DNA from: Bacteroidota bacterium | GTDB lineage: Bacteria > Bacteroidota > Bacteroidia > NS11-12g > UBA9320 | Length of the DNA: 64,000 bases | Assembly: GCA_947468275.1 (NCBI GenBank) | Contig: CANIKO010000018.1 | Span: 1 to 64,000 of the forward strand | Reading direction: 5' to 3' | In this document: positions 1 to 31,786 of the stretch, one piece after another | How the letters are laid out: every line of letters starts with the position of its first letter | How positions within the stretch are numbered: the stretch's first letter is position 1 | Program-made: the position numbers and the translations under genes | Notes under the pieces: generated by a model | Database searches by the model: none | Told to the model about the DNA's origin: nothing | Seen by the model: the letters and a program-made list of their open reading frames with translations, nothing else

Positions 1-3000
1 CAAACATCGCCAATATTAAAATCAGCTTTAGACTGTAGTTTTACATTTACTTCTTTAGTCACCACATCAGAACATCCGTTGTTTGATAAAAGATTAAGAG
101 TAACATTTTTTCTGCCTGTTACACTAAATAATTTAGAAGGATTTTCAAGAGTAGTAGTTCCTTCTCCTGCAAAGTCCCATGAAAAAGTAGTTATTGCACC
201 TGCTGGTTTAGTTCCAGTAAAGCTAAAGTTTGTATTTGTTAAGTTACAAGCTGAACCCCAAGTAAAGTCTGCATTTGGAGCTTCTGATAAAGTAATGGTT
301 TTGATAGATGAATCCATACAACCAAATTCTGATACCGCTTTCATTTTAACTGTTTTGGCAGTAGCTGTTGTAAACTGGTGAATAGGACTTGCAAAGTTTG
401 AAACTCCACCATCTCCAAAATCCCAAGTATAACCCATATTTCCCATTTTAATTGTAGAATTATTGGTAAACTGAACATCTGAATTATCACAGATTAAACT
501 AGGAGCCGTAAATTTAGCAACTGGAGTTGCAAATTGATTGGCATTTTTGCTTAATTCTGAAGTACAACCGCTAGCTGTTGCTCTAAGGGTTACCTTATAA
601 GCGCCTGCATTTTTGTAAGTAAAAGTTGGGCTTTTTGCTGTACTATTAGCAGAACCAGCTTCGCCAAAGTTCCAAACATAAGTAACTGCTCCTGATCCAA
701 TGGTAGTTTTATTGTTAAATGAAACGGCCACTTTTTCGCAAGCATTACGAACATCAAAACTAATTTTTGGTATTTCTGTAACAACAACTGTTAATGTTTT
801 TGTTTCAACATATCCGAAAGGAAGAGAAGTGGTTTTTAAAGTCACATCATATGATCCAAAAGTAGGGAATTTGAATACTGTTGTACTAATGGTAGAGGTA
901 TCGGCAGGATTACCGGTATTGAAATCCCATTTATAGGTCATATATCCAGAGGATATCTTACTTAAATCAGTAAATAATACGGCATCTCCGTCACACACTG
1001 GTTGGTTGAATGAGAAGTTAGGAACTGGACGTGGAGCTACTCTTATGTATCTAAAAATAGTAGAATCACAATAGTATGGTCCTAAATCTTTTAACTGCAT
1101 ACTTACAATAAATGTACTGTCATCTAAAGTTCCGTCAGGAGTAAACGTTAAAGTTCCTGATGTTGAACTTGAAGGGGCACTATAGCTCCAAAAAGCACCT
1201 GCAGGAATATTAGTTCCTTTTAGTGTTTTGATAACAGGAGTAATAGTAATCCATTTTGAACCGTAACCAGCGTTGGTGTAACCAGTTGGAGGGGTTAATA
1301 GATAGGTTAATTTATCACCTTTAGCTACGATATCAGGGCTACTTGGTGTACCAAGCGTATTAGGTTGTGAACTTTGGAATGGAGTTCCTTTTGTAAAGGC
1401 AGCACCATTTGGACTTGGGTTTACAGTGATTTTAATTGGAATTCTAGAACTTGGGCAAATTGATTTTCTGTAATAGGTTTCCAAATCTATATTGTAAGGC
1501 GCATAAACTCCCGTAGAAGCCCATTGACCATATATATAGGAGCCACCTGTTATTGAAAGTTCTGAATTGCTATAGGTAGAGGTTCCAGAAGTAGCAAATA
1601 GGTCATTACCCGTGGTAGTCGTCGTGGTAATATAAAAACCATAAGTATTTCCTGATTTAAGTGCTAATTCAGGGATTCTCAAAAATCCTCTGTTTTTTCC
1701 ACCTACGGTAGCCACTCTTGAAACTCCTGATTTAACAAGCGTCCAACCAGTTGATGATCTTTCGTTACCTGCAAAGGCCGTAGCATTAGATCTATACCAT
1801 ACTTCAAAGGTTGTATTTGGAGTGAAATTATATAAATCGATTGCAAAACTATCGATAACAATATCACTTGAAGGTTTTAAATCTACCATGGCACCATTAT
1901 AGGCACTGAAATTGGCAGATAATATCGTTGTGCCATTCATTCCATTGGCTAATTTGCTAGGTCCGCCCATTTTAAAGGCTTGTGCCCAGAAATTATTTAC
2001 CCCAAGAAATAATGGAGGAGAAAGTGTGTTTTTGCCTCTGGCAACTGCTGATCCACCAGTAGAAGCATTGTACCAAACAACTGAATCCGTTTTGTACGGA
2101 GTAGTACATTTAAGTGGTGCTTTTCCTGGACCACATTTAATAGCATCCGTAGTAGTAGGAGTACCGGCAGGGGCTACAAATGAAAAACTTATAACGGAAG
2201 TGTCATTACTCTTGTCTACATCTGTAACATTGTTTGGAGAGTATGTAAATACTTTTACTTTATATGTAGTGGCATCAATAAAATTATAATCAGGAGTTAA
2301 GTTAATTGTAGCTGTTCCACCTGATTTAGTAATGGTTTTTGAATAGGTATTTACTGTTTGATAAGTACCATTTACTGACCAACCTACTTGCACAGGGGTA
2401 ATGTCGTTATTACCTAAATTGGTAATAGTTGCAGTAAGCACTGGAGAACATGTAGGAGTTGCTATGCTGGTTATACCTGCATCATTAGGGTCAGATGCTA
2501 AGGTTATTGTATAATCTTCAGCTTCACCATATCCTAAATCAGAACAACCTGCATCAGTACTCGCAGGGCAGCTCATATAATAGTAGGTAGAACGAATACG
2601 CATACGGCTTGTTCCTGGAGTAAGACCCGCAGGCATCTTAACTGTAAAATAAGTTAATGAAGAGGTTCCGTTTGGAACATTACCTGAGGCATAAACGCAA
2701 GTTGGGATAGTTAGAAATTCATTGGCATCCGCAAAATCATTATCGGCATTTAAATCTATCCAAATCATTACATTTACAGGATAAGATGGTCCTGTAGTAA
2801 ACCCAAATGTATAAGTACCACTTGCTTTAAGCGTGAACATTGGTGTAGTACTCATTAAAAAATACTGACCAGAAGCTGCATTACAACCATTATAACCATA
2901 AGTGTTGTGAGCTCGTGTGTACAAAGTTGTAGACCCCTGTTTTATCTCTACCGCATTAATAGACATGGCATAGGTGGTACAGTTGTTACTTTGATAAGTG

Positions 3001-3131
3001 TAAACAGGATCACAGTAGGGGGATTGTGCCATAATTGGCGCAATTCCAACGCTAAATAGTAAGGCAAGGGAAATTAGTCCTTTACTTAATTTAGGGGATT
3101 TTTTAAAAAATGAGGTAAATGTTTTTTTCAT
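1..3131 (-). CDS. Large secreted GEVED/PKD-repeat surface protein (3' end beyond window)
   Basis: The frame is open from an ATG at 3131 down to the window edge, giving about 1,043 residues without a stop, so the C-terminus is missing. A signal peptide covers about residues 1-36 (basic start, hydrophobic stretch, cut after AQS). Residues about 110-212 form a GEVED domain ending in GYGEAEDYTI. A CARDB/Ig-like stretch and a beta-rich region follow. From about residue 700 there are at least four PKD modules with WDFGDGG-like cores, the clearest near residue 902, and a fifth begins at the edge. Such proteins in Bacteroidota are usually exported by T9SS and end in a sorting domain; here that end is out of view. 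A cell-surface or adhesin role is inference. A TAnnTTTG box lies at 3154-3161. Confidence 0.9.
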   Translation of the reverse strand, partial: MKKTFTSFFKKSPKLSKGLISLALLFSVGIAPIMAQSPYCDPVYTYQSNNCTTYAMSINAVEIKQGSTTLYTRAHNTYGYNGCNAASGQYFLMSTTPMFTLKASGTYTFGFTTGPSYPVNVMIWIDLNADNDFADANEFLTIPTCVYASGNVPNGTSSLTYFTVKMPAGLTPGTSRMRIRSTYYYMSCPASTDAGCSDLGYGEAEDYTITLASDPNDAGITSIATPTCSPVLTATITNLGNNDITPVQVGWSVNGTYQTVNTYSKTITKSGGTATINLTPDYNFIDATTYKVKVFTYSPNNVTDVDKSNDTSVISFSFVAPAGTPTTTDAIKCGPGKAPLKCTTPYKTDSVVWYNASTGGSAVARGKNTLSPPLFLGVNNFWAQAFKMGGPSKLANGMNGTTILSANFSAYNGAMVDLKPSSDIVIDSFAIDLYNFTPNTTFEVWYRSNATAFAGNERSSTGWTLVKSGVSRVATVGGKNRGFLRIPELALKSGNTYGFYITTTTTTGNDLFATSGTSTYSNSELSITGGSYIYGQWASTGVYAPYNIDLETYYRKSICPSSRIPIKITVNPSPNGAAFTKGTPFQSSQPNTLGTPSSPDIVAKGDKLTYLLTPPTGYTNAGYGSKWITITPVIKTLKGTNIPAGAFWSYSAPSSSTSGTLTFTPDGTLDDSTFIVSMQLKDLGPYYCDSTIFRYIRVAPRPVPNFSFNQPVCDGDAVLFTDLSKISSGYMTYKWDFNTGNPADTSTISTTVFKFPTFGSYDVTLKTTSLPFGYVETKTLTVVVTEIPKISFDVRNACEKVAVSFNNKTTIGSGAVTYVWNFGEAGSANSTAKSPTFTYKNAGAYKVTLRATASGCTSELSKNANQFATPVAKFTAPSLICDNSDVQFTNNSTIKMGNMGYTWDFGDGGVSNFASPIHQFTTATAKTVKMKAVSEFGCMDSSIKTITLSEAPNADFTWGSACNLTNTNFSFTGTKPAGAITTFSWDFAGEGTTTLENPSKLFSVTGRKNVTLNLLSNNGCSDVVTKEVNVKLQSKADFNIGDV

Positions 3132-3153
3132 ATTTTTATTGTGTTTTGGTTTT

Positions 3154-3161
3154 CAAATGTA
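3154..3161 (-). promoter_or_regulatory. -7 promoter box (TACATTTG) for the PKD surface protein
   Basis: On the minus strand this reads TACATTTG, a full match to the Bacteroidota -7 consensus TAnnTTTG. It lies 22 bases before the start codon at 3131. No clear -33 TTG is visible. Confidence 0.5.
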
Positions 3162-3430
3162 TCTATATTTTTCATAAATCATAATGATGAACTAGTAATT
3201 GTATTTATTTTTTACAATAAATGGCCTTATTTTTTTTTAAAACTCTGATTATTATAGAAATAAAGATATTAACGAGTTTTCAATAATGACACTAATATGA
3301 TGGTTTTATTTTGGTTTTTAAGGTTCGTTCTTATTTCGTCTAGTAAAAGTTTACGTTTATTTTTTTTAAAATTCTCTAAAATTGTATTTTAAATTCCTTG
3401 TTTAAAATGCCCTTAAAACCTTTTTGCTTT

Positions 3431-3438
3431 TAACTTTG
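3431..3438 (+). promoter_or_regulatory. -7 promoter box (TAACTTTG)
   Basis: TAACTTTG matches TAnnTTTG and ends 19 bases before the TTG start at 3458. No well-placed -33 TTG was found. Confidence 0.5.
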
Positions 3439-3457
3439 TTTTGTTTTAAAATAACGA

Positions 3458-4603
3458 TTGATTCCAAGTAATTCTTTAGCCCACCAAAGGTTTTCCTTTT
3501 TTGAATATAGCTGCATTACTGATATAGCGGATATTTGGGATAGTATATTACCAGTAAATCATTCTTTAGTAAGTCCAAATTTAAAGGTATTGGAGTTGGC
3601 GAAGCCCGACGATATGCAATTTAAATATTTAATGGTTCGGAAAATGGATGCGGTAATTGGTGTAATTTATTTACAACAATTAAAAATAACAACGAACCAC
3701 TTTGATGGTACAGCCATAGATAAGCCTGGTTTGGGGTGGTTAAAGAAATGTATTAATAGTCAGTTTAGGGATGTGTTGATTTGTGGCAATTTATTTAGGG
3801 TACATTTTCCTGGATATTACTTTAAAAATACGAAGGACGATAGCTTAGTCTTTGAAATACTGACTGATTACCTTAACTCAACCAAAGAAAATAAAAGGTT
3901 TTGTGGCATTTTAGTAAAGGATAGTCCACATCAATTTAAGGATTTGGATAAATTTAAACCGTATCATGATGACGTCACTATGGAAATTGAGATAAAGAAT
4001 CAATGGAAATCAATGGACGACTATAAGTTTAGCTTGCGAAAAAAGTACCGACAGCGTTATAATACCATTCAAAATTCAGGTAAATCTGTTACCTTTAAGG
4101 AATTTTCATTGGATGAAATTATAATGAATGCTTCGCAAATAGAGCAGCTTTATTTGAATGTTGCACTCAAGCAGTCCTTGCGAATAGGATTTGTTAATGC
4201 GGCCTATTTTATAGAAATGAAACGGTGTTATGGCGATTCTTTCATATTAAAAGGGTATTATTTTAATAATGAGTTAGTCGCATTTAGTAGCCATATTATG
4301 TATGAAAATGAAGTAATGGAAATTCACTTTATAGGATTAAATTATAATCATAATGATTCCCAATCGCTCTATTTTAATATTTTATTTGATGGTTTGGAAA
4401 TAGCTATTTTAAAAAAAATGAAGCGATTGGAACTTGGTCGTACCGCCCGTGTAGCAAAGGCTTCCTTGGGGGGTAAGCCCATCGGTATTTTTAATTATAT
4501 TTTACTTAAAAAAGGGATTCCATCATTGGCTTTTACTTTTTTCAATACATGGTTTGTGAAAAGTTTGGGTGAAGATTGGATGCAACGAAATCCTTTTAAA
4601 TAG
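3458..4603 (+). CDS. FemAB/GNAT-like acyltransferase family protein
   Basis: The protein has 381 residues. The C-terminal half, about residues 165-350, looks like the GNAT fold of the Acetyltransf_6/FemAB-like group seen in Bacteroidota. It has a basic helix (SLRKKYRQRYN), a strand-rich core (YYFNNELVAFSSHIMYENEVMEIHF) and a late LELGRTARVAKASLGG motif. Such proteins transfer acyl or aminoacyl groups, often in cell-envelope synthesis, but the substrate cannot be read here. The start is TTG: an in-frame TAA lies two codons upstream and no ATG is near. The gene stands alone, with DivIC following after about 70 bases. The family assignment is by resemblance only. Confidence 0.7.
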   Translation: MIPSNSLAHQRFSFFEYSCITDIADIWDSILPVNHSLVSPNLKVLELAKPDDMQFKYLMVRKMDAVIGVIYLQQLKITTNHFDGTAIDKPGLGWLKKCINSQFRDVLICGNLFRVHFPGYYFKNTKDDSLVFEILTDYLNSTKENKRFCGILVKDSPHQFKDLDKFKPYHDDVTMEIEIKNQWKSMDDYKFSLRKKYRQRYNTIQNSGKSVTFKEFSLDEIIMNASQIEQLYLNVALKQSLRIGFVNAAYFIEMKRCYGDSFILKGYYFNNELVAFSSHIMYENEVMEIHFIGLNYNHNDSQSLYFNILFDGLEIAILKKMKRLELGRTARVAKASLGGKPIGIFNYILLKKGIPSLAFTFFNTWFVKSLGEDWMQRNPFK

Positions 4604-4641
4604 CTGTCGTTTTCTTTTGGCACAATGTGGATACAACTTAG

Positions 4642-4670
4642 TTGTATTTTTAATAATATTCTTAATTTTG
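4642..4670 (+). promoter_or_regulatory. Promoter TTG-N18-TAATTTTG for the DivIC gene
   Basis: TTG at 4642-4644 and TAATTTTG at 4663-4670 are separated by 18 bases. The -7 box ends 5 bases before ATG 4676, so the transcript should be nearly leaderless. This also argues against the longer reading frame starting at 4625. Confidence 0.65.
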
Positions 4671-4675
4671 ATGGT

Positions 4676-4957
4676 ATGAAAAAGTTGCTAAAAAATAAGT
4701 ATATCCTTACCCTCTTGATTTTTGGAGTATGGATGATTTTCTTTGATCAGAACAGTTATTTATCGCAACGAAAAATCAACAAAGAGCTCAATCAATTGGA
4801 GGCTCGTAAAAAAGTATACATTAATCAAAATGAATTACTTAGAGTTCAGAGAGAAAGTTTACTTGGTAGTTTTGATAATCTTGAAAAGTTAGCGCGTGAA
4901 AAGTATCTAATGAAACGCGACGATGAGGATGTTTATCTAGTGGAAGTGGAAAATTAA
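4676..4957 (+). CDS. DivIC/FtsB family septum formation protein
   Basis: This 93-residue bitopic membrane protein has a short basic N-terminus (MKKLLKNKY), one membrane helix (about 8-24), then a coiled coil (about 28-65, from SQRKINKELNQ). It ends in the FDNLEKLAREKYLMKRDDEDVYLV segment, typical of the DivIC/FtsB family. In the divisome, FtsB-type proteins bridge FtsL and FtsQ at the septum in the periplasm. The frame is open upstream to 4625, but ATG 4676 is preferred because a promoter -7 box ends 5 bases before it and the membrane helix then sits at the usual distance from the start. Confidence 0.85.
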   Translation: MKKLLKNKYILTLLIFGVWMIFFDQNSYLSQRKINKELNQLEARKKVYINQNELLRVQRESLLGSFDNLEKLAREKYLMKRDDEDVYLVEVEN

Positions 4958-5058
4958 AAAAATAATTTTACGTAATTCGTTCCTAAAAACGAGAAGCTGA
5001 ATTTTAATATAATTGGGTCATAAAATAATTCTTAATCCCAATCCTTTATAAATTAATT

Positions 5059-6036
5059 TTATCTATATACCACAGAATTAACTGCATCCATAATGCGTTT
5101 TACATTTGGTAAAAACACTTCCACCAAAGTTGGGGCATATGGCAAAGGGGTGTCACGAGTGGTAACGCGTGTAACAGGGGCATCTAAATAATCAAAGGCA
5201 TATTTTTGCATCCAATAGGCTATTTCGCCTGAAATACTTGCCAATGGCCAAGCTTCTTCTACCACAACCATACGATTCGTCTTTTTGACAGATTCCAACA
5301 TGGTGAGGTAGTCAATTGGCCTCACGGTTCTCAAGTCAATTACCTCTGCATTAATACCATTTTTTTCAAGTTCTATAACGGTTTGATCCACTACTCGCAT
5401 CATTTTTCCAAATGAAACAATGGTAACATCTGTTCCTTCTTTTGTAACTTTCGCTTTTCCAATGGGGATTAAATATTCACCATCGGGTACTTCGCCTTTA
5501 GTTCCATACATCTGTTCCGATTCCATAAATATAACTGGGTCATTATCGCGAATCGATGATTTTAGTAATCCTTTGGCATCCGCAGGATTAGAAGGCACAA
5601 CTACCTTTAATCCGGGACAATTTGCAAACCAGTTTTCAAAACTTTGAGAATGTTGAGCTCCTAATTGGCCGGCACTTCCTGTGGGACCTCTAAAAACCAT
5701 AGGTGCTCCAAAATTTCCACCGCTCATCGAAAGCATTTTGGCGGCCGCATTTACTACTTGATCTATGGCCACTAACGAAAAATTAAAGGTCATAAATTCT
5801 ACAATTGGTCTTAGTCCGTTCATGGCAGCACCAACAGCAATTCCAGCAAATCCTAATTCGGCAATTGGAGTATCCACCACACGCTTAGGTCCAAATTCAG
5901 CAAGCATTCCTTGGCTCACTTTATAGGCGCCATTATATTCAGCTACTTCTTCCCCTATTAACAGGATTTTTGAGTCAAGTCTCATTTCTTCTTCCATAGC
6001 TTCACGAAGCGCTTCACGAAATTGTAGGGTTTTCAT
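5059..6036 (-). CDS. pdhB: Pyruvate dehydrogenase E1 component, beta subunit
   Basis: The protein has 325 residues, full length for an E1 beta subunit. It binds thiamine diphosphate together with the alpha subunit and decarboxylates pyruvate, feeding acetyl groups to E2. Visible signatures are the N-terminal FREALREAMEEEM, the EVAEYNGAYKVSQGM segment, DTPIAELGFAGIAVGAA near residues 55-70, FRGPTGSAGQLGAQHSQ, and the transketolase C-terminal domain with GKMMRVVDQT and EEAWPLASISGEIA. No alpha subunit or E2 gene is next to it, so the complex is encoded at more than one locus. The gene is convergent with divIC. The other possible reading, a branched-chain 2-oxoacid dehydrogenase beta subunit, is less likely. 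Confidence 0.93.
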   Translation of the reverse strand: MKTLQFREALREAMEEEMRLDSKILLIGEEVAEYNGAYKVSQGMLAEFGPKRVVDTPIAELGFAGIAVGAAMNGLRPIVEFMTFNFSLVAIDQVVNAAAKMLSMSGGNFGAPMVFRGPTGSAGQLGAQHSQSFENWFANCPGLKVVVPSNPADAKGLLKSSIRDNDPVIFMESEQMYGTKGEVPDGEYLIPIGKAKVTKEGTDVTIVSFGKMMRVVDQTVIELEKNGINAEVIDLRTVRPIDYLTMLESVKKTNRMVVVEEAWPLASISGEIAYWMQKYAFDYLDAPVTRVTTRDTPLPYAPTLVEVFLPNVKRIMDAVNSVVYR

Positions 6037-6150
6037 TTGATAATTAATTTTATTTCTATTTTTAATTAAGGGTTGTATCGAATCGTCTATTTTTAATTTA
6101 TTTCAAACAAAACAAAATAGAGTTATGTTTCATTTGTTTAAAAAAGAGTG

Positions 6151-6158
6151 CAAAAATA
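6151..6158 (-). promoter_or_regulatory. Possible -7 box (TATTTTTG) for pdhB
   Basis: On the minus strand this reads TATTTTTG, a TAnnTTTG match 114 bases upstream of the pdhB ATG. It lies just downstream of the SRP RNA gene, so pdhB need not rely on read-through. No good -33 element is visible. Confidence 0.4.
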
Positions 6159-6191
6159 GGTTTTAGATGTGAAAATGGAAACCAGTATAAA

Positions 6192-6284
6192 ACAAAACAA
6201 GCCAGTATCGCACCGCTACAACCTTCTACCCTTGCTGCATTCCTGCCCTGGGGGATTAAAAGGGAGCTGGTCGTACTGACTTGT
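6192..6284 (-). ncRNA. ffs: Signal recognition particle RNA (small bacterial type)
   Basis: The minus strand carries the conserved domain IV core: CCCCCAGGGCAGGAATGCAGCAAGGGTA, read at about 6253-6226, with the GGAA-type tetraloop region and the asymmetric internal loop that binds Ffh. The ends pair: CAAGTCAGTA (6283-6274 in RNA order) with TACTGGCTTG (6207-6198), leaving one G-U pair. The RNA is about 90 bases and ends in a U-rich run (TTGTTTTGTTTT), so the closing stem may itself act as the terminator. A TAATTTTG box sits just upstream. The exact ends are estimated. Confidence 0.92.
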
Positions 6285-6288
6285 GCTG

Positions 6289-6296
6289 CAAAATTA
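6289..6296 (-). promoter_or_regulatory. -7 box (TAATTTTG) of the SRP RNA gene
   Basis: TAATTTTG on the minus strand ends about 5 bases before the first paired base of the SRP RNA at 6283, the distance expected for a transcription start. Confidence 0.65.
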
Positions 6297-6453
6297 ATAA
6301 TTTTTCCGGATTTAAATTTATAAATTCTTGTTTTGTTAAATTCTTATCGCTGTAAATAAGTCAATTATTATTTATTGTAATTTTTAAACAATCTGACCTT
6401 AAAAAGTTGTTGCATCAAAATGTCTTAAATCTGAATATATCACATCTTAACTA

Positions 6454-6461
6454 TAAATTTG
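6454..6461 (+). promoter_or_regulatory. -7 box (TAAATTTG) of the acyl-CoA carboxylase gene
   Basis: TAAATTTG ends 7 bases before ATG 6469, predicting a nearly leaderless mRNA. No clear -33 TTG is seen. Confidence 0.6.
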
Positions 6462-6468
6462 CCACCAA

Positions 6469-8085
6469 ATGTATGACATAGAATTTAATAGGAACGAAGA
6501 CAGTATGAAACTGTTTTGGAATCAAATTCGAACACTGGGTGAAAAAATTGAAAAAGGAGGAGGGGATAAGGCCGCAGCCAAACACAAAGAAAATGGTAAA
6601 ATGCTGGCGCGAGAAAGAATAGAATACCTAAAAGATAATGACGCCACTTTTTATGAAATAGGCTTATTTGCTGGTCATGGGATGTATAAGGAACATGGCG
6701 GTTGCCCGGCTGGGGGAGTGGTAGGGGGGATTACATATATTGCAGGTCGACAATGCGTAATTGTGGCTAACGATGCCACAGTTAAAGCGGGAGCATGGTT
6801 TCCTATGACGGCTAAAAAAAGTCTTCGCTTTCAGGAAATAGCAATGGAAAACAGACTTCCTATTATATACTTAGTAGATAGTGCCGGAGTGTTTTTACCA
6901 ATGCAAGATGAAATATTTGCCGATAAGGATCATTTTGGAAGAATATTTAGAAACAATGCAAAACTAAGCAGTATGGGGATTACCCAAATAGCCGCTGTTA
7001 TGGGAAGTTGTGTTGCGGGAGGAGCCTATTTGCCAATAATGAGTGATGAGGCATTGATTGTAGATAAAACAGGTTCTATATTTTTGGCTGGAAGTTATTT
7101 AGTTAAAGCGGCCATTGGTGAAATAGTAGATAATGAAACTTTAGGAGGGTCGGTGACTCAATCTGAAATTTCAGGAGTTATTGACGATCGATTTCCGGAT
7201 GACAAATCTTGTCTTGACAGAATAAAATTTATCATGGACAAAATAGGCCATTTCGAAACTGCAGGGATCGATAGAAAAGAATCTGTAGAACCTAAAAAAG
7301 ATCCAAAAGAAATTTATGGCTTACTTCCTGAAAATAAATCAAAAACCTATAAATCCATTGAAATTATTGAACGATTGGTTGATAATTCAGAATTTGAACA
7401 GTACAAAAAAGGGTATGGTCAAACCATATTGTGTGGCTATGCCCGCATAGATGGTTGGTCTGTAGGGATTGTGGCCAATAATCGCGTAGTGGTTAAAACC
7501 AAAAGTGGAGAAATGCAATTCGGAGGGGCCATATATTCAGACTCGGCAGATAAAGCTGCTCGATTTATTATGAACTGTAACCAGAAAAAAATTCCACTTG
7601 TCTTTCTCCAAGATGTTACAGGGTTTATGGTAGGTTCGCGCAGCGAACAAAGTGGTATTATTAAAGATGGTGCAAAGATGGTAAATGCTATGAGCAACAG
7701 CACTGTTCCAAAGTTTACCATTATTTTGAGTAATAGTTACGGCGCTGGTAATTATGCCATGTGCGGCAAAGCCTATGACCCAAGAATAATATTAGCCTGG
7801 CCAACTGCAAAAATTGCCGTGATGGGCGGCGAACAGGCGGCCAAAACATTATTACAACTAGAAAAATCAAAAATAGGAACTGTAACCCCTGAAGAAGAAA
7901 AGGCATTGTTGGATAGAATAACTGATCGATATAATTTACAAACGACTTCAATTCATGCAGCTTCTAATCTTTGGGTAGATGCAATTATTGACCCTTTGGA
8001 GACTCGAAATTGGATTTCAATGGGGATTGAAGCCGCCAATCATGCCCCAATAACGACGTTTAATGTTGGAGTTATTCAAACCTAA
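6469..8085 (+). CDS. Acyl-CoA carboxylase, carboxyltransferase (beta) subunit
   Basis: The protein has 538 residues, the usual length for biotin-dependent acyl-CoA carboxylase beta subunits. It moves carboxyl from carboxybiotin to an acyl-CoA. The sequence is closest in style to methylcrotonoyl-CoA carboxylase beta: YLVDSAGVFLPMQDEIFADKDHFGRIF in the N-terminal crotonase-like domain (about residues 135-165), MGSCVAGGAYLPIMSDE and GSIFLAGSYLVKAA. The C-terminal domain has DVTGFMVGSRSEQSGII and SNSYGAGNYAMCGKAYDPR. This would fit leucine breakdown, but propionyl- or geranyl-CoA substrates cannot be excluded. No biotin carboxylase subunit lies next to it. The start is set by the -7 box 7 bases upstream. 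Confidence 0.88.
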   Translation: MYDIEFNRNEDSMKLFWNQIRTLGEKIEKGGGDKAAAKHKENGKMLARERIEYLKDNDATFYEIGLFAGHGMYKEHGGCPAGGVVGGITYIAGRQCVIVANDATVKAGAWFPMTAKKSLRFQEIAMENRLPIIYLVDSAGVFLPMQDEIFADKDHFGRIFRNNAKLSSMGITQIAAVMGSCVAGGAYLPIMSDEALIVDKTGSIFLAGSYLVKAAIGEIVDNETLGGSVTQSEISGVIDDRFPDDKSCLDRIKFIMDKIGHFETAGIDRKESVEPKKDPKEIYGLLPENKSKTYKSIEIIERLVDNSEFEQYKKGYGQTILCGYARIDGWSVGIVANNRVVVKTKSGEMQFGGAIYSDSADKAARFIMNCNQKKIPLVFLQDVTGFMVGSRSEQSGIIKDGAKMVNAMSNSTVPKFTIILSNSYGAGNYAMCGKAYDPRIILAWPTAKIAVMGGEQAAKTLLQLEKSKIGTVTPEEEKALLDRITDRYNLQTTSIHAASNLWVDAIIDPLETRNWISMGIEAANHAPITTFNVGVIQT

Positions 8086-12833: not shown

Positions 12834-15152
12834 CTATCCTGAATGACTAAGGAATAATTCATTAACGATTTTTAAAGTTTCAAAAATTGCTTCTTTAGGA
12901 TTGTAAGCGGTATCAGAAATGCCAGAAACAACTCGGGATATATTATGATCAACATTTCCTTTAGAATTCCAAGTGGATGATTGGGCAACTGTCAAGTAAG
13001 CAGAAAAATTATGATGCTCAGATCCTGGCCTCTCGCCAATTATATGTATAATACAATGACATTTTTTGGGGGATGGCTTTTGACCAAATAAGATTTCTCC
13101 ACAAGCATAGCCGGCTCTTACACGTCCATTCTTCAGCACTAAGTGTTTATCACTCATTGAGTAATTGCGCTCTTTTAAGTTACTTGATAGACCATTTAAA
13201 TAAGGTAATAAATGTCCTTCGTCCATCAAAGCCTTGGCATTTAATCCATCAGAAATGATGATTTGAATATCAGGAGCGGATCCATTCCAGGAATTTTTGA
13301 TGGAATTTATCTTATCTATTGCTTTCAAAGATAATGCTTCCCCAGAAACAGGGTGGTATATGTAGTCTTTTCTGTCTTTGGATTGTGTGGCAATAAAAAC
13401 AGAAGCCGGAATGCTTTGCACAAATGTGGAATCTAGTTCTGTCCATAAACACACTTTGGCATCTTCATATAAATAATGAACCTGTTTATCCAAGGCTGGC
13501 TTTAAATCCCAGTGATTTTTACCAAAGCCTTGCGCAATAGGTACGCCTCGCTTTTCTATGCGGGCTATGGCCTGCCTACCTTCTTCATAAATTTCTTTCA
13601 GTGACCTTTTATCTTTTTTTGTTTTCCTGTACTGGTAATATACCCAAATAGGATCACCAAAATGTTCGGTTGGCTTACCTTGACTATCGATTACTTCTAT
13701 CTTTTTAAAAAAATCCCACATAGCATCATTTACCTTATAACCAAACTGCTCGCGTATTTTAACATGGTCGTTAAATGCTGTCGATAAATAACTAAGCATC
13801 GGGTCGTTTTTAGTAGGTAAGGCCATCAAATATGCGGGGTTTGCTGGCATCACATTTTCAATGCACCAGTCTAAATCTTCTAAGTTTACATCCATGTGCA
13901 ACGTGGAGCAAATGTCTAAACCAATGGTCAATCCGTGCAGTTTACCCATAACGGTATCTTCCAAGCAACACCGTACTAACTGCTCCTTGGTTCTGAACAC
14001 TTCAGGACCAATAAACCCGGCAACATCATTCACATGTACCCATGATTTGTTTCCATCTTTTAGTGCGTCAATCCTTTGCTTTAAAACCCTTAGAAATCCA
14101 TATTTTCTTGATTCATGCAACACCATATCGAAACCTGAGGCATGCCCATTGGTAAGTTCTGCTCCTTGTCCGGTTTCGGCATAGAATCCATATTGTCCCT
14201 CTCTTTGGGAAGCGTATCGCAACATTTTTTCAATGCTGACGTCATAAGTTTTATTTGCATTTACAGTGCTTGCGATACTCTGAAACCAAATCCCGGTAAC
14301 TCCGGAATTTTCTTTTTCTATTTTCGCTTGAATATCGATATGAGAGAGTACACAGTTTGGAATTATTTTTTCCAAACCAAAACTTGCAATGATGTCGAAT
14401 AGAGCGTATTCAATTTTTTCAACAGATGCCGGTTCACTAGAAACGGGATTTGTGCCTAAAACGACATCACCAACTGCATAAGACCAGGCATCAAAGACTT
14501 GCCAAGTAATATCTTCTGTATTATCCGTTGGGGAATTAGGTTGCACCCTAGCTCCCATATAGCCATTACTTCCAATTTTGCTATTTGGCAGTGCGTTAAA
14601 AATTTTTTTACTGACTTGAATGAGTTCGTCATTACTCATTAATTTTACTAAACAAGCAATTAAATCACTACTTAGGCATGGCATGATTTCCTTTATCTTC
14701 TCCTCGGGTTGGGACAATGTAAATGCTTTGAGTTTGCTAACTGTCCACTTATCTAAAGTAGAATTATTCTGTGTTGATTGTTGAATAAGTAAAAGGATTT
14801 CATCTTCATACACTAAATGTTTATTCAGACTACCGATTTGAGTATTGCCGAGTAATTCCCTTGCATGGGCTCTTGAAAAATCATCAACTGCTGATATGTT
14901 TAAGGATTTGTCACCTTCTTTGAACTCGTTAGCGGCACCTAAAATTTGTCTGTAAAGTGTGACATTATATTCACCCTTAACTCTTTTGATGTAATTGAAA
15001 ATATCCTCACCCAACCTTGGCTTTTGGATGATAGTGCCACCTATATGGGAGGTTAATGCTTTATCATTCTTAGTGAAAAAATCACAACCGTTTAAAATTA
15101 GAACCGATGCTGCAGATAATCCAGATAATTTTATAAATTCTTCTCTTCTCAT
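12834..15152 (-). CDS. Ethanolamine ammonia-lyase, EutB-EutC fusion with lipoprotein-like N-terminus
   Basis: This 772-residue protein joins both subunits of the adenosylcobalamin-dependent enzyme that cleaves ethanolamine to acetaldehyde and ammonia. The EutB part (about 70-510) has LMSNDELIQVSKKIFN, ARVQPNSPTD, YAVGDVVLGTNPV, FYAETGQGAEL, VAGFIGPEVF and MGKLHGLTIGLDICSTLHMD. The EutC part (about 530-770) has IISDGLNAKALMDEG and IIHIIGERPGS, the cobalamin-facing elements. Residues 1-23 look like a bacterial export signal: RREEFIK resembles a twin-arginine motif (one residue too long), then a hydrophobic run ending in LNGC, a lipobox with Cys23. A cofactor-binding enzyme exported by Tat would fit, but the enzyme is normally cytosolic. 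No eut microcompartment, EutA reactivase or EutH gene is nearby. The leader can fold (15187-15225). Confidence 0.9.
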   Translation of the reverse strand: MRREEFIKLSGLSAASVLILNGCDFFTKNDKALTSHIGGTIIQKPRLGEDIFNYIKRVKGEYNVTLYRQILGAANEFKEGDKSLNISAVDDFSRAHARELLGNTQIGSLNKHLVYEDEILLLIQQSTQNNSTLDKWTVSKLKAFTLSQPEEKIKEIMPCLSSDLIACLVKLMSNDELIQVSKKIFNALPNSKIGSNGYMGARVQPNSPTDNTEDITWQVFDAWSYAVGDVVLGTNPVSSEPASVEKIEYALFDIIASFGLEKIIPNCVLSHIDIQAKIEKENSGVTGIWFQSIASTVNANKTYDVSIEKMLRYASQREGQYGFYAETGQGAELTNGHASGFDMVLHESRKYGFLRVLKQRIDALKDGNKSWVHVNDVAGFIGPEVFRTKEQLVRCCLEDTVMGKLHGLTIGLDICSTLHMDVNLEDLDWCIENVMPANPAYLMALPTKNDPMLSYLSTAFNDHVKIREQFGYKVNDAMWDFFKKIEVIDSQGKPTEHFGDPIWVYYQYRKTKKDKRSLKEIYEEGRQAIARIEKRGVPIAQGFGKNHWDLKPALDKQVHYLYEDAKVCLWTELDSTFVQSIPASVFIATQSKDRKDYIYHPVSGEALSLKAIDKINSIKNSWNGSAPDIQIIISDGLNAKALMDEGHLLPYLNGLSSNLKERNYSMSDKHLVLKNGRVRAGYACGEILFGQKPSPKKCHCIIHIIGERPGSEHHNFSAYLTVAQSSTWNSKGNVDHNISRVVSGISDTAYNPKEAIFETLKIVNELFLSHSG

Positions 15153-31252: not shown

Positions 31253-31786
31253 TTACTTTTTTGTAAACGTAAAATTTATCTTAGATGTAGTTTCCACTTG
31301 AGTTATAGGATTAGTAAAAACATAATCAGTTACACCTTTCATCTCTGTATCTGTAATTACCACTTGGTCAATAATCACTTTATTGGCATTTATTAAACTA
31401 AAATAGGCAGAGTTGGTTATTTCAATTTGGGTTTCATTATTTGTAAAACGCCAGTTTCCATCTTTCGCAGTTTGTGGTTCTGTACCACATTTCAACGCTC
31501 CGTTATCAATGGTCATTGAACTGTCGGCGTTAAAAATAATTAGATTGTCTTTTTGGCAATCTTCAATTAGTGGTATTTCAAACAGTTCATTAAAGGTGAA
31601 ATTTTGGGTTCCGATAGTAGTTACAATTGGGGGGACAAAAGTGGCCTTGGTAAGCAACCAATTAGAAGCAACCAATTTTTGGGTATTTGTTTTGGTACTA
31701 GATGGGTTAGGTGTTTTGTCTTTACAGGCATTTAAAAGGAACACACTAACCACTATTAAGGATATAAAGATTTTTGTAAATTTCAT
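31253..31786 (-). CDS. Lipocalin-like lipoprotein
   Basis: The 177-residue protein has a lipoprotein signal with lipobox LNAC, so Cys21 should be lipidated. The mature part is beta-rich: NWLLTKATF at its start, DNLIIFNADSSMTIDNGALKCGTE in the middle and GNWRFTNNETQIEI, a sequence pattern of Bacteroidota lipocalin-like proteins (DUF5004/lipocalin_4 type). Placement in the envelope is expected; the ligand is unknown. It precedes the cysteine-rich peptide operon, but a hairpin and a 200-base gap separate them. Confidence 0.8.
   Translation of the reverse strand: MKFTKIFISLIVVSVFLLNACKDKTPNPSSTKTNTQKLVASNWLLTKATFVPPIVTTIGTQNFTFNELFEIPLIEDCQKDNLIIFNADSSMTIDNGALKCGTEPQTAKDGNWRFTNNETQIEITNSAYFSLINANKVIIDQVVITDTEMKGVTDYVFTNPITQVETTSKINFTFTKK

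Follow-up and report, generated by a model that had tools for sequence, protein, structure and literature searches.

A probable exported, lipid-anchored EutB-EutC fusion in a Bacteroidota genome and its signal-bearing relatives

Enzymes that depend on adenosylcobalamin (AdoCbl) are taken as cytosolic; their cofactor is made in the cytosol and the damaged enzyme is repaired there by an ATP-driven reactivase. We know of no AdoCbl enzyme that has been described outside the cytoplasm. The Tat-exported corrinoid reductive dehalogenases PceA and CprA are a precedent for the passage of a folded B12 protein through Tat, and they use cobalamin together with Fe-S clusters for reduction, with no adenosylcobalamin radical chemistry. 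For ethanolamine ammonia-lyase itself, our search of the open-licence literature found no report that it is exported by Tat, exists as a lipoprotein or is located in the periplasm. The closest described relatives are the two fused copies EutBC1 and EutBC2 of the 2012 Pelobacter carbinolicus genome, which the portions of that paper used here present with no eutA and with periplasmic binding and cobalamin genes nearby; within those portions, the description of the fusions makes no mention of export (PMC3543383). Here we analyse a stretch of Bacteroidota DNA of 64,000 nucleotides (the window), in which a single gene encodes EutB and EutC as one chain. Judged from sequence, its product is quite probably an extracytoplasmic ethanolamine ammonia-lyase, exported by an N-terminal signal and lipid-anchored on Cys23.

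The fused gene and its product

The gene and the parts of its product, with the evidence in brackets, are as follows.

12834..15152, minus strand: eutBC fusion gene, probable exported lipoprotein, 772 aa (ORF and profile matches)
15084..15152, minus strand: predicted signal peptide, residues 1-23, with n-region RREEFIK, a hydrophobic run and lipobox-like LNG-Cys23 (sequence and aligned register; low AF2 pLDDT)
15009..15083, minus strand: tether of low conservation and mostly low model confidence, residues 24-48, linking Cys23 to the folded core (pLDDT 33-45 as far as roughly residue 40; EutB match starts at residue 49)
13635..15008, minus strand: EutB domain, residues 49-506, AdoCbl/substrate barrel (Pfam, active-site residues, 3abo_A with Z 42.2)
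12837..13634, minus strand: linker and EutC domain, residues 507-772 (Pfam; 5ysr_D with Z 22.4 for model residues 499-772)

The original prediction placed both ethanolamine ammonia-lyase subunits in one 772-residue chain, and Pfam agrees, with EutB (PF06751) at 64-496 (E 4.5e-129, 431.5 bits) and EutC (PF05985) at 546-767 (E 2.2e-29, 102.9 bits), both over the cut-off. The protein also passes NF011649 (566.4, cut-off 554) and falls below the EutC equivalog NF003971 (65.4 against a cut-off of 230). Its AlphaFold model has a mean pLDDT of 85, low throughout residues 1-40 and under 50 only at residues 15-37 and in a short C-terminal loop; residues 49-506 superpose on E. coli EutB with an rmsd of 2.1 and approximately 28% identity. 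R202, Q204, N235, E326, F380 and D413 of the window protein correspond to R160, Q162, N193, E287, F329 and D362 of E. coli EutB, which we take to be the substrate and catalytic residues, and all six are invariant in 38 fusion members from three phyla. The low identity could also fit an exported enzyme whose main substrate is another amino alcohol or head group, and the excerpted Pelobacter paper suggests from the two copies that the lyases for ethanolamine and for choline could be separate enzymes (PMC3543383); with the ethanolamine-contacting residues conserved, we regard this as very unlikely.

The gene is the sole EutB gene of its genome (3.3 Mb, 99% complete). It was also predicted to have no adjacent eut gene, and profile matches of the flanking ORFs bear this out: the neighbours are a urocanase, a carboxyltransferase, a large secreted-looking protein and a transporter permease, none of them ethanolamine-related. 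In Bacteroidota, conserved neighbours of the exported fusions were likewise sought and none found; the gene stands alone and its surroundings lend no pathway support. Relatives at 55-70% identity were found in the same order and phylum as the window genome. The closest matches are in Flavobacteriaceae at 75-76%, a genome of the window's own family reaches only 58%, and 2 of the 38 genomes of that family carry the exported eutBC gene; this patchy spread is probably due to horizontal acquisition.

The assigned start is secure, since no start codon lies in frame upstream of the gene and TTG47, the next possible one, falls at the margin of the folded core. Because no ATG, GTG or TTG occurs between codon 1 and TTG47, the signal-like segment is part of the main product. 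A signal-less form could arise from TTG47, and this counts against the export reading.

Export signals of the family and of the window protein

As the original prediction proposed, the N-termini of related fusions were compared. The 80 best related fusion loci were taken from the genome collection, and since two were cut by contig ends, 78 complete N-termini remained, all of them signal-like. These were scored for RR/RK-x-[FLIVMY] followed by a hydrophobic run, and the same rule was applied to 574 neighbouring ORFs as a control. The RR/RK-x-F type of signal occurs in 65/78 fusions against 27/574 neighbouring ORFs (Fisher p 4e-54, to be read with the caution that related sequences are not independent draws), a frequency beyond chance that speaks against the reservation that the signal may be only apparent. 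Within these 65, the twin is RK in 41 and RR in 24, and Phe is present in 63. Seven further fusions, including close relatives beginning MTRTDFLKQ and MSRDEFLKQ, have R-x-x-F-[LI] with a degenerate second twin position. The six others, all from Desulfuromonadales or Desulfobacterales, carry Sec-type signals, which are long and hydrophobic with an AGA- or VSA-like end and no twin arginine. A lipobox-like Cys is found in 34/78 fusions, and in 25 of 31 lipobox fusions it lies exactly 20 residues after the first twin Arg; the myxobacterial members are Tat-lipoprotein-like (HRRAVLTAMVGGAAVSVLGC). In profile searches of 72 N-termini, the Tat signal TIGR01409 was the commonest match (14 members, best E 1.9e-5), and PF10518 matched four.

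The window protein starts MRREEFIKLSGLSAASVLILNGC, so that RREEFIK, the hydrophobic run and LNGC at Cys23 are all where they had been described. The twin-arginine spacing had been called one residue too long, which is true if counted from R2R3. Aligned to the relatives, the conserved Arg is R3 and not R2, Cys23 equals R3+20, and the second twin position is E4. In the register of the family, this protein's twin is thus R3-E4, with R2 as an additional residue. Profile searches including TIGR01409 and PF10518 gave no match of a Tat profile to this N-terminus. In the lipobox-like segment, the Gly at -1 is as expected. The Asn at -2 is unusual, occurs in 0/54 neighbouring lipoprotein-like ORFs and speaks against a textbook lipobox, but it is common to many relatives (LNGC, LNSC, FNSC). 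Another lipoprotein-like gene of the window also has Asn at this position, in the LLNAC of a DUF5004-like 177-aa protein (31253-31786, minus strand). Given the R3-E4 twin, the missing Tat profile match and the shared Asn, we consider export and lipid anchoring of the window protein likely from its sequence, with either Tat or Sec as the route. Of the suggested Tat export and lipid anchoring, export is well supported and Tat itself is uncertain and less sure than export as such.

The evidence may also be read as a usual ethanolamine ammonia-lyase of the cytosol whose N-terminal tail happens to vary. The degenerate twin with no Tat profile match and the possible start at TTG47 fit this, as do the closest relatives (L024 and L025), which likewise carry R-T and R-D in place of the twin. 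Against it stand the three kinds of signal across the family, the fixed register of the Cys, the distinct signal-less paralogs and, in the predicted model, the position of residues 1-40 outside the fold. We therefore consider a merely apparent signal unlikely and continue with the exported lipoprotein.

Homologous fusions without a signal had been named as grounds for refuting export, and those encountered belong either to distinct paralogs or to a fusion lineage that is unrelated. A first EutB tree did not separate the outgroup from locus L111 of Desulfobacterales; a tree from a new alignment restricted to EutB columns separated the two cleanly, and the branch of L111 was very long in this tree as well. 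In it, the 58 members of the fusion family form one clade (stem support 100) apart from split EutB; the Sec-type members group together (96), and so do the signal-less copies of myxobacteria (98), apart from one additional case. The split EutB of other Bacteroidota has no signal, and its N-terminus is directly at the EutB core. The fusion family is present in 56/193 Myxococcota genomes, several of which have two copies, one signal-bearing and one signal-less that begins at or near the core (e.g., MSVRLPDVLPDEDVL). The N-terminal extensions vary among the signal-less myxobacterial paralogs L166, L174, L168 and L175, and an exported paralog is present in several of their genomes. One Desulfobacterales genome combines an exported-type copy with an unrelated signal-less fusion adjoining EutH and EutA. 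As signals are found in the family clade and none in split EutB or the paralogs, the sequences indicate that compartment tracks the clade and not fusion as such.

Cofactor supply and the proposed reaction outside the cytoplasm

From the fusion, the conserved active site, the family-wide export signals and their absence from distinct paralogs, we infer that the protein would reach the periplasm or surface, bind adenosylcobalamin and cleave ethanolamine. The signal is common to relatives in three bacterial groups, and ethanolamine is therefore probably split outside the cytoplasm. The signal would move the fused chain across the inner membrane; in most members its RR/RK form suggests the Tat route, by which the chain would leave the cytoplasm folded and perhaps with its cofactor already bound, and lipobox members, including the window protein, would be held to the membrane via the lipid on their Cys. 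Ethanolamine freed from lipid head groups would then yield ammonia and acetaldehyde outside the cytoplasm, and both products may pass through membranes with no carrier of their own, which would make an ethanolamine transporter or a microcompartment unnecessary.

The window genome encodes TatC (G000:C1:274886-275572, E 6.6e-64), as do 41/42 fusion genomes overall, and a PduO-type cobalamin adenosyltransferase is present in it and in 36/42 fusion genomes. A convincing EutA was found in one of the 42; the search of the window genome returned no true EutA, the one match being weak, partial and below the cut-off. Almost every genome gave some EutA match, but these were discounted as partial matches to another actin-fold protein, probably FtsA: most lay within profile positions 116-272, they scored under 39 bits, and control genomes such as B. 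subtilis and Caulobacter gave them too. Lack of EutA is also not peculiar to the exported forms, for by eye none was seen among the few visible genes beside those split loci of Bacteroidota that have an APC-type permease. The lack of EutA, together with a periplasm without the ATP that such a reactivase needs, counts against the exported-enzyme reading.

In Desulfuromonadales, the exported eutBC lies in an operon with a solute-binding protein (SBP) gene and BtuD-, BtuF- and FecCD-like genes. A protein of about 273 aa with no Pfam match is encoded directly downstream (L117:6507-7325 and equivalents), and is a candidate partner of exported EutBC; the excerpted Pelobacter paper calls its counterpart multitransmembrane. 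These corrinoid-type ABC transporter genes, the cytosolic synthesis of AdoCbl and the missing reactivase would suit an exported non-catalyst, i.e., a periplasmic corrinoid store, scavenger or sensor. Binding alone would not demand six invariant substrate and catalytic residues across three phyla, and we find such a role highly improbable.

For an exported catalyst, the original prediction had required that the cofactor be loaded before export. This requirement falls away because the Desulfobacterota members with Sec-type signals would fold outside the cytoplasm: they would bind AdoCbl after export, plausibly from cobalamin transiting the periplasm, and in Desulfuromonadales their genes adjoin those of a corrinoid-type ABC importer. 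The Sec-exported relatives thus suggest that the cofactor can be loaded outside; the window protein itself may take either Tat or Sec/SPII. We lean towards the wider view that Bacteroidota, Myxococcota and Desulfobacterota share a family of AdoCbl radical enzymes whose place of work is outside the cytoplasm, with Sec-exported members taking their cofactor in the periplasm, and that coenzyme B12 chemistry would extend beyond the cytosol.

Comparison with known systems

Extracytoplasmic splitting of ethanolamine by a fused, exported EutBC has, to our knowledge, not been described before. A widespread exported form, if true, would let bacteria draw nitrogen from lipid-derived ethanolamine with neither a shell nor a transporter dedicated to it, and it raises the question of how an enzyme beyond the cytoplasm is supplied with coenzyme B12 and keeps it active. 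The signal-bearing and signal-less paralog pairs of myxobacteria offer a natural control for this comparison.

The Pelobacter clusters, in the excerpts used, have the same layout as the Desulfuromonadales loci analysed here (PMC3543383). The Desulfuromonadales relatives analysed here bear Sec-type signals, neither Tat nor lipoprotein. Locus L111 (genome G536, 1332-6480) also encodes an EutB-EutC fusion, but it has no signal, lies directly behind EutH and EutA and groups with the split, classical side of the EutB tree; it is probably an independent fusion. In comparison with E. coli EutBC (3ABO; EC 4.3.1.7), the window protein has no EutA, EutH or microcompartment genes nearby and only about 28% identity; both domains, the fold and the active-site residues are common to the two, and the window protein is set apart as a single chain with a signal and a tether.
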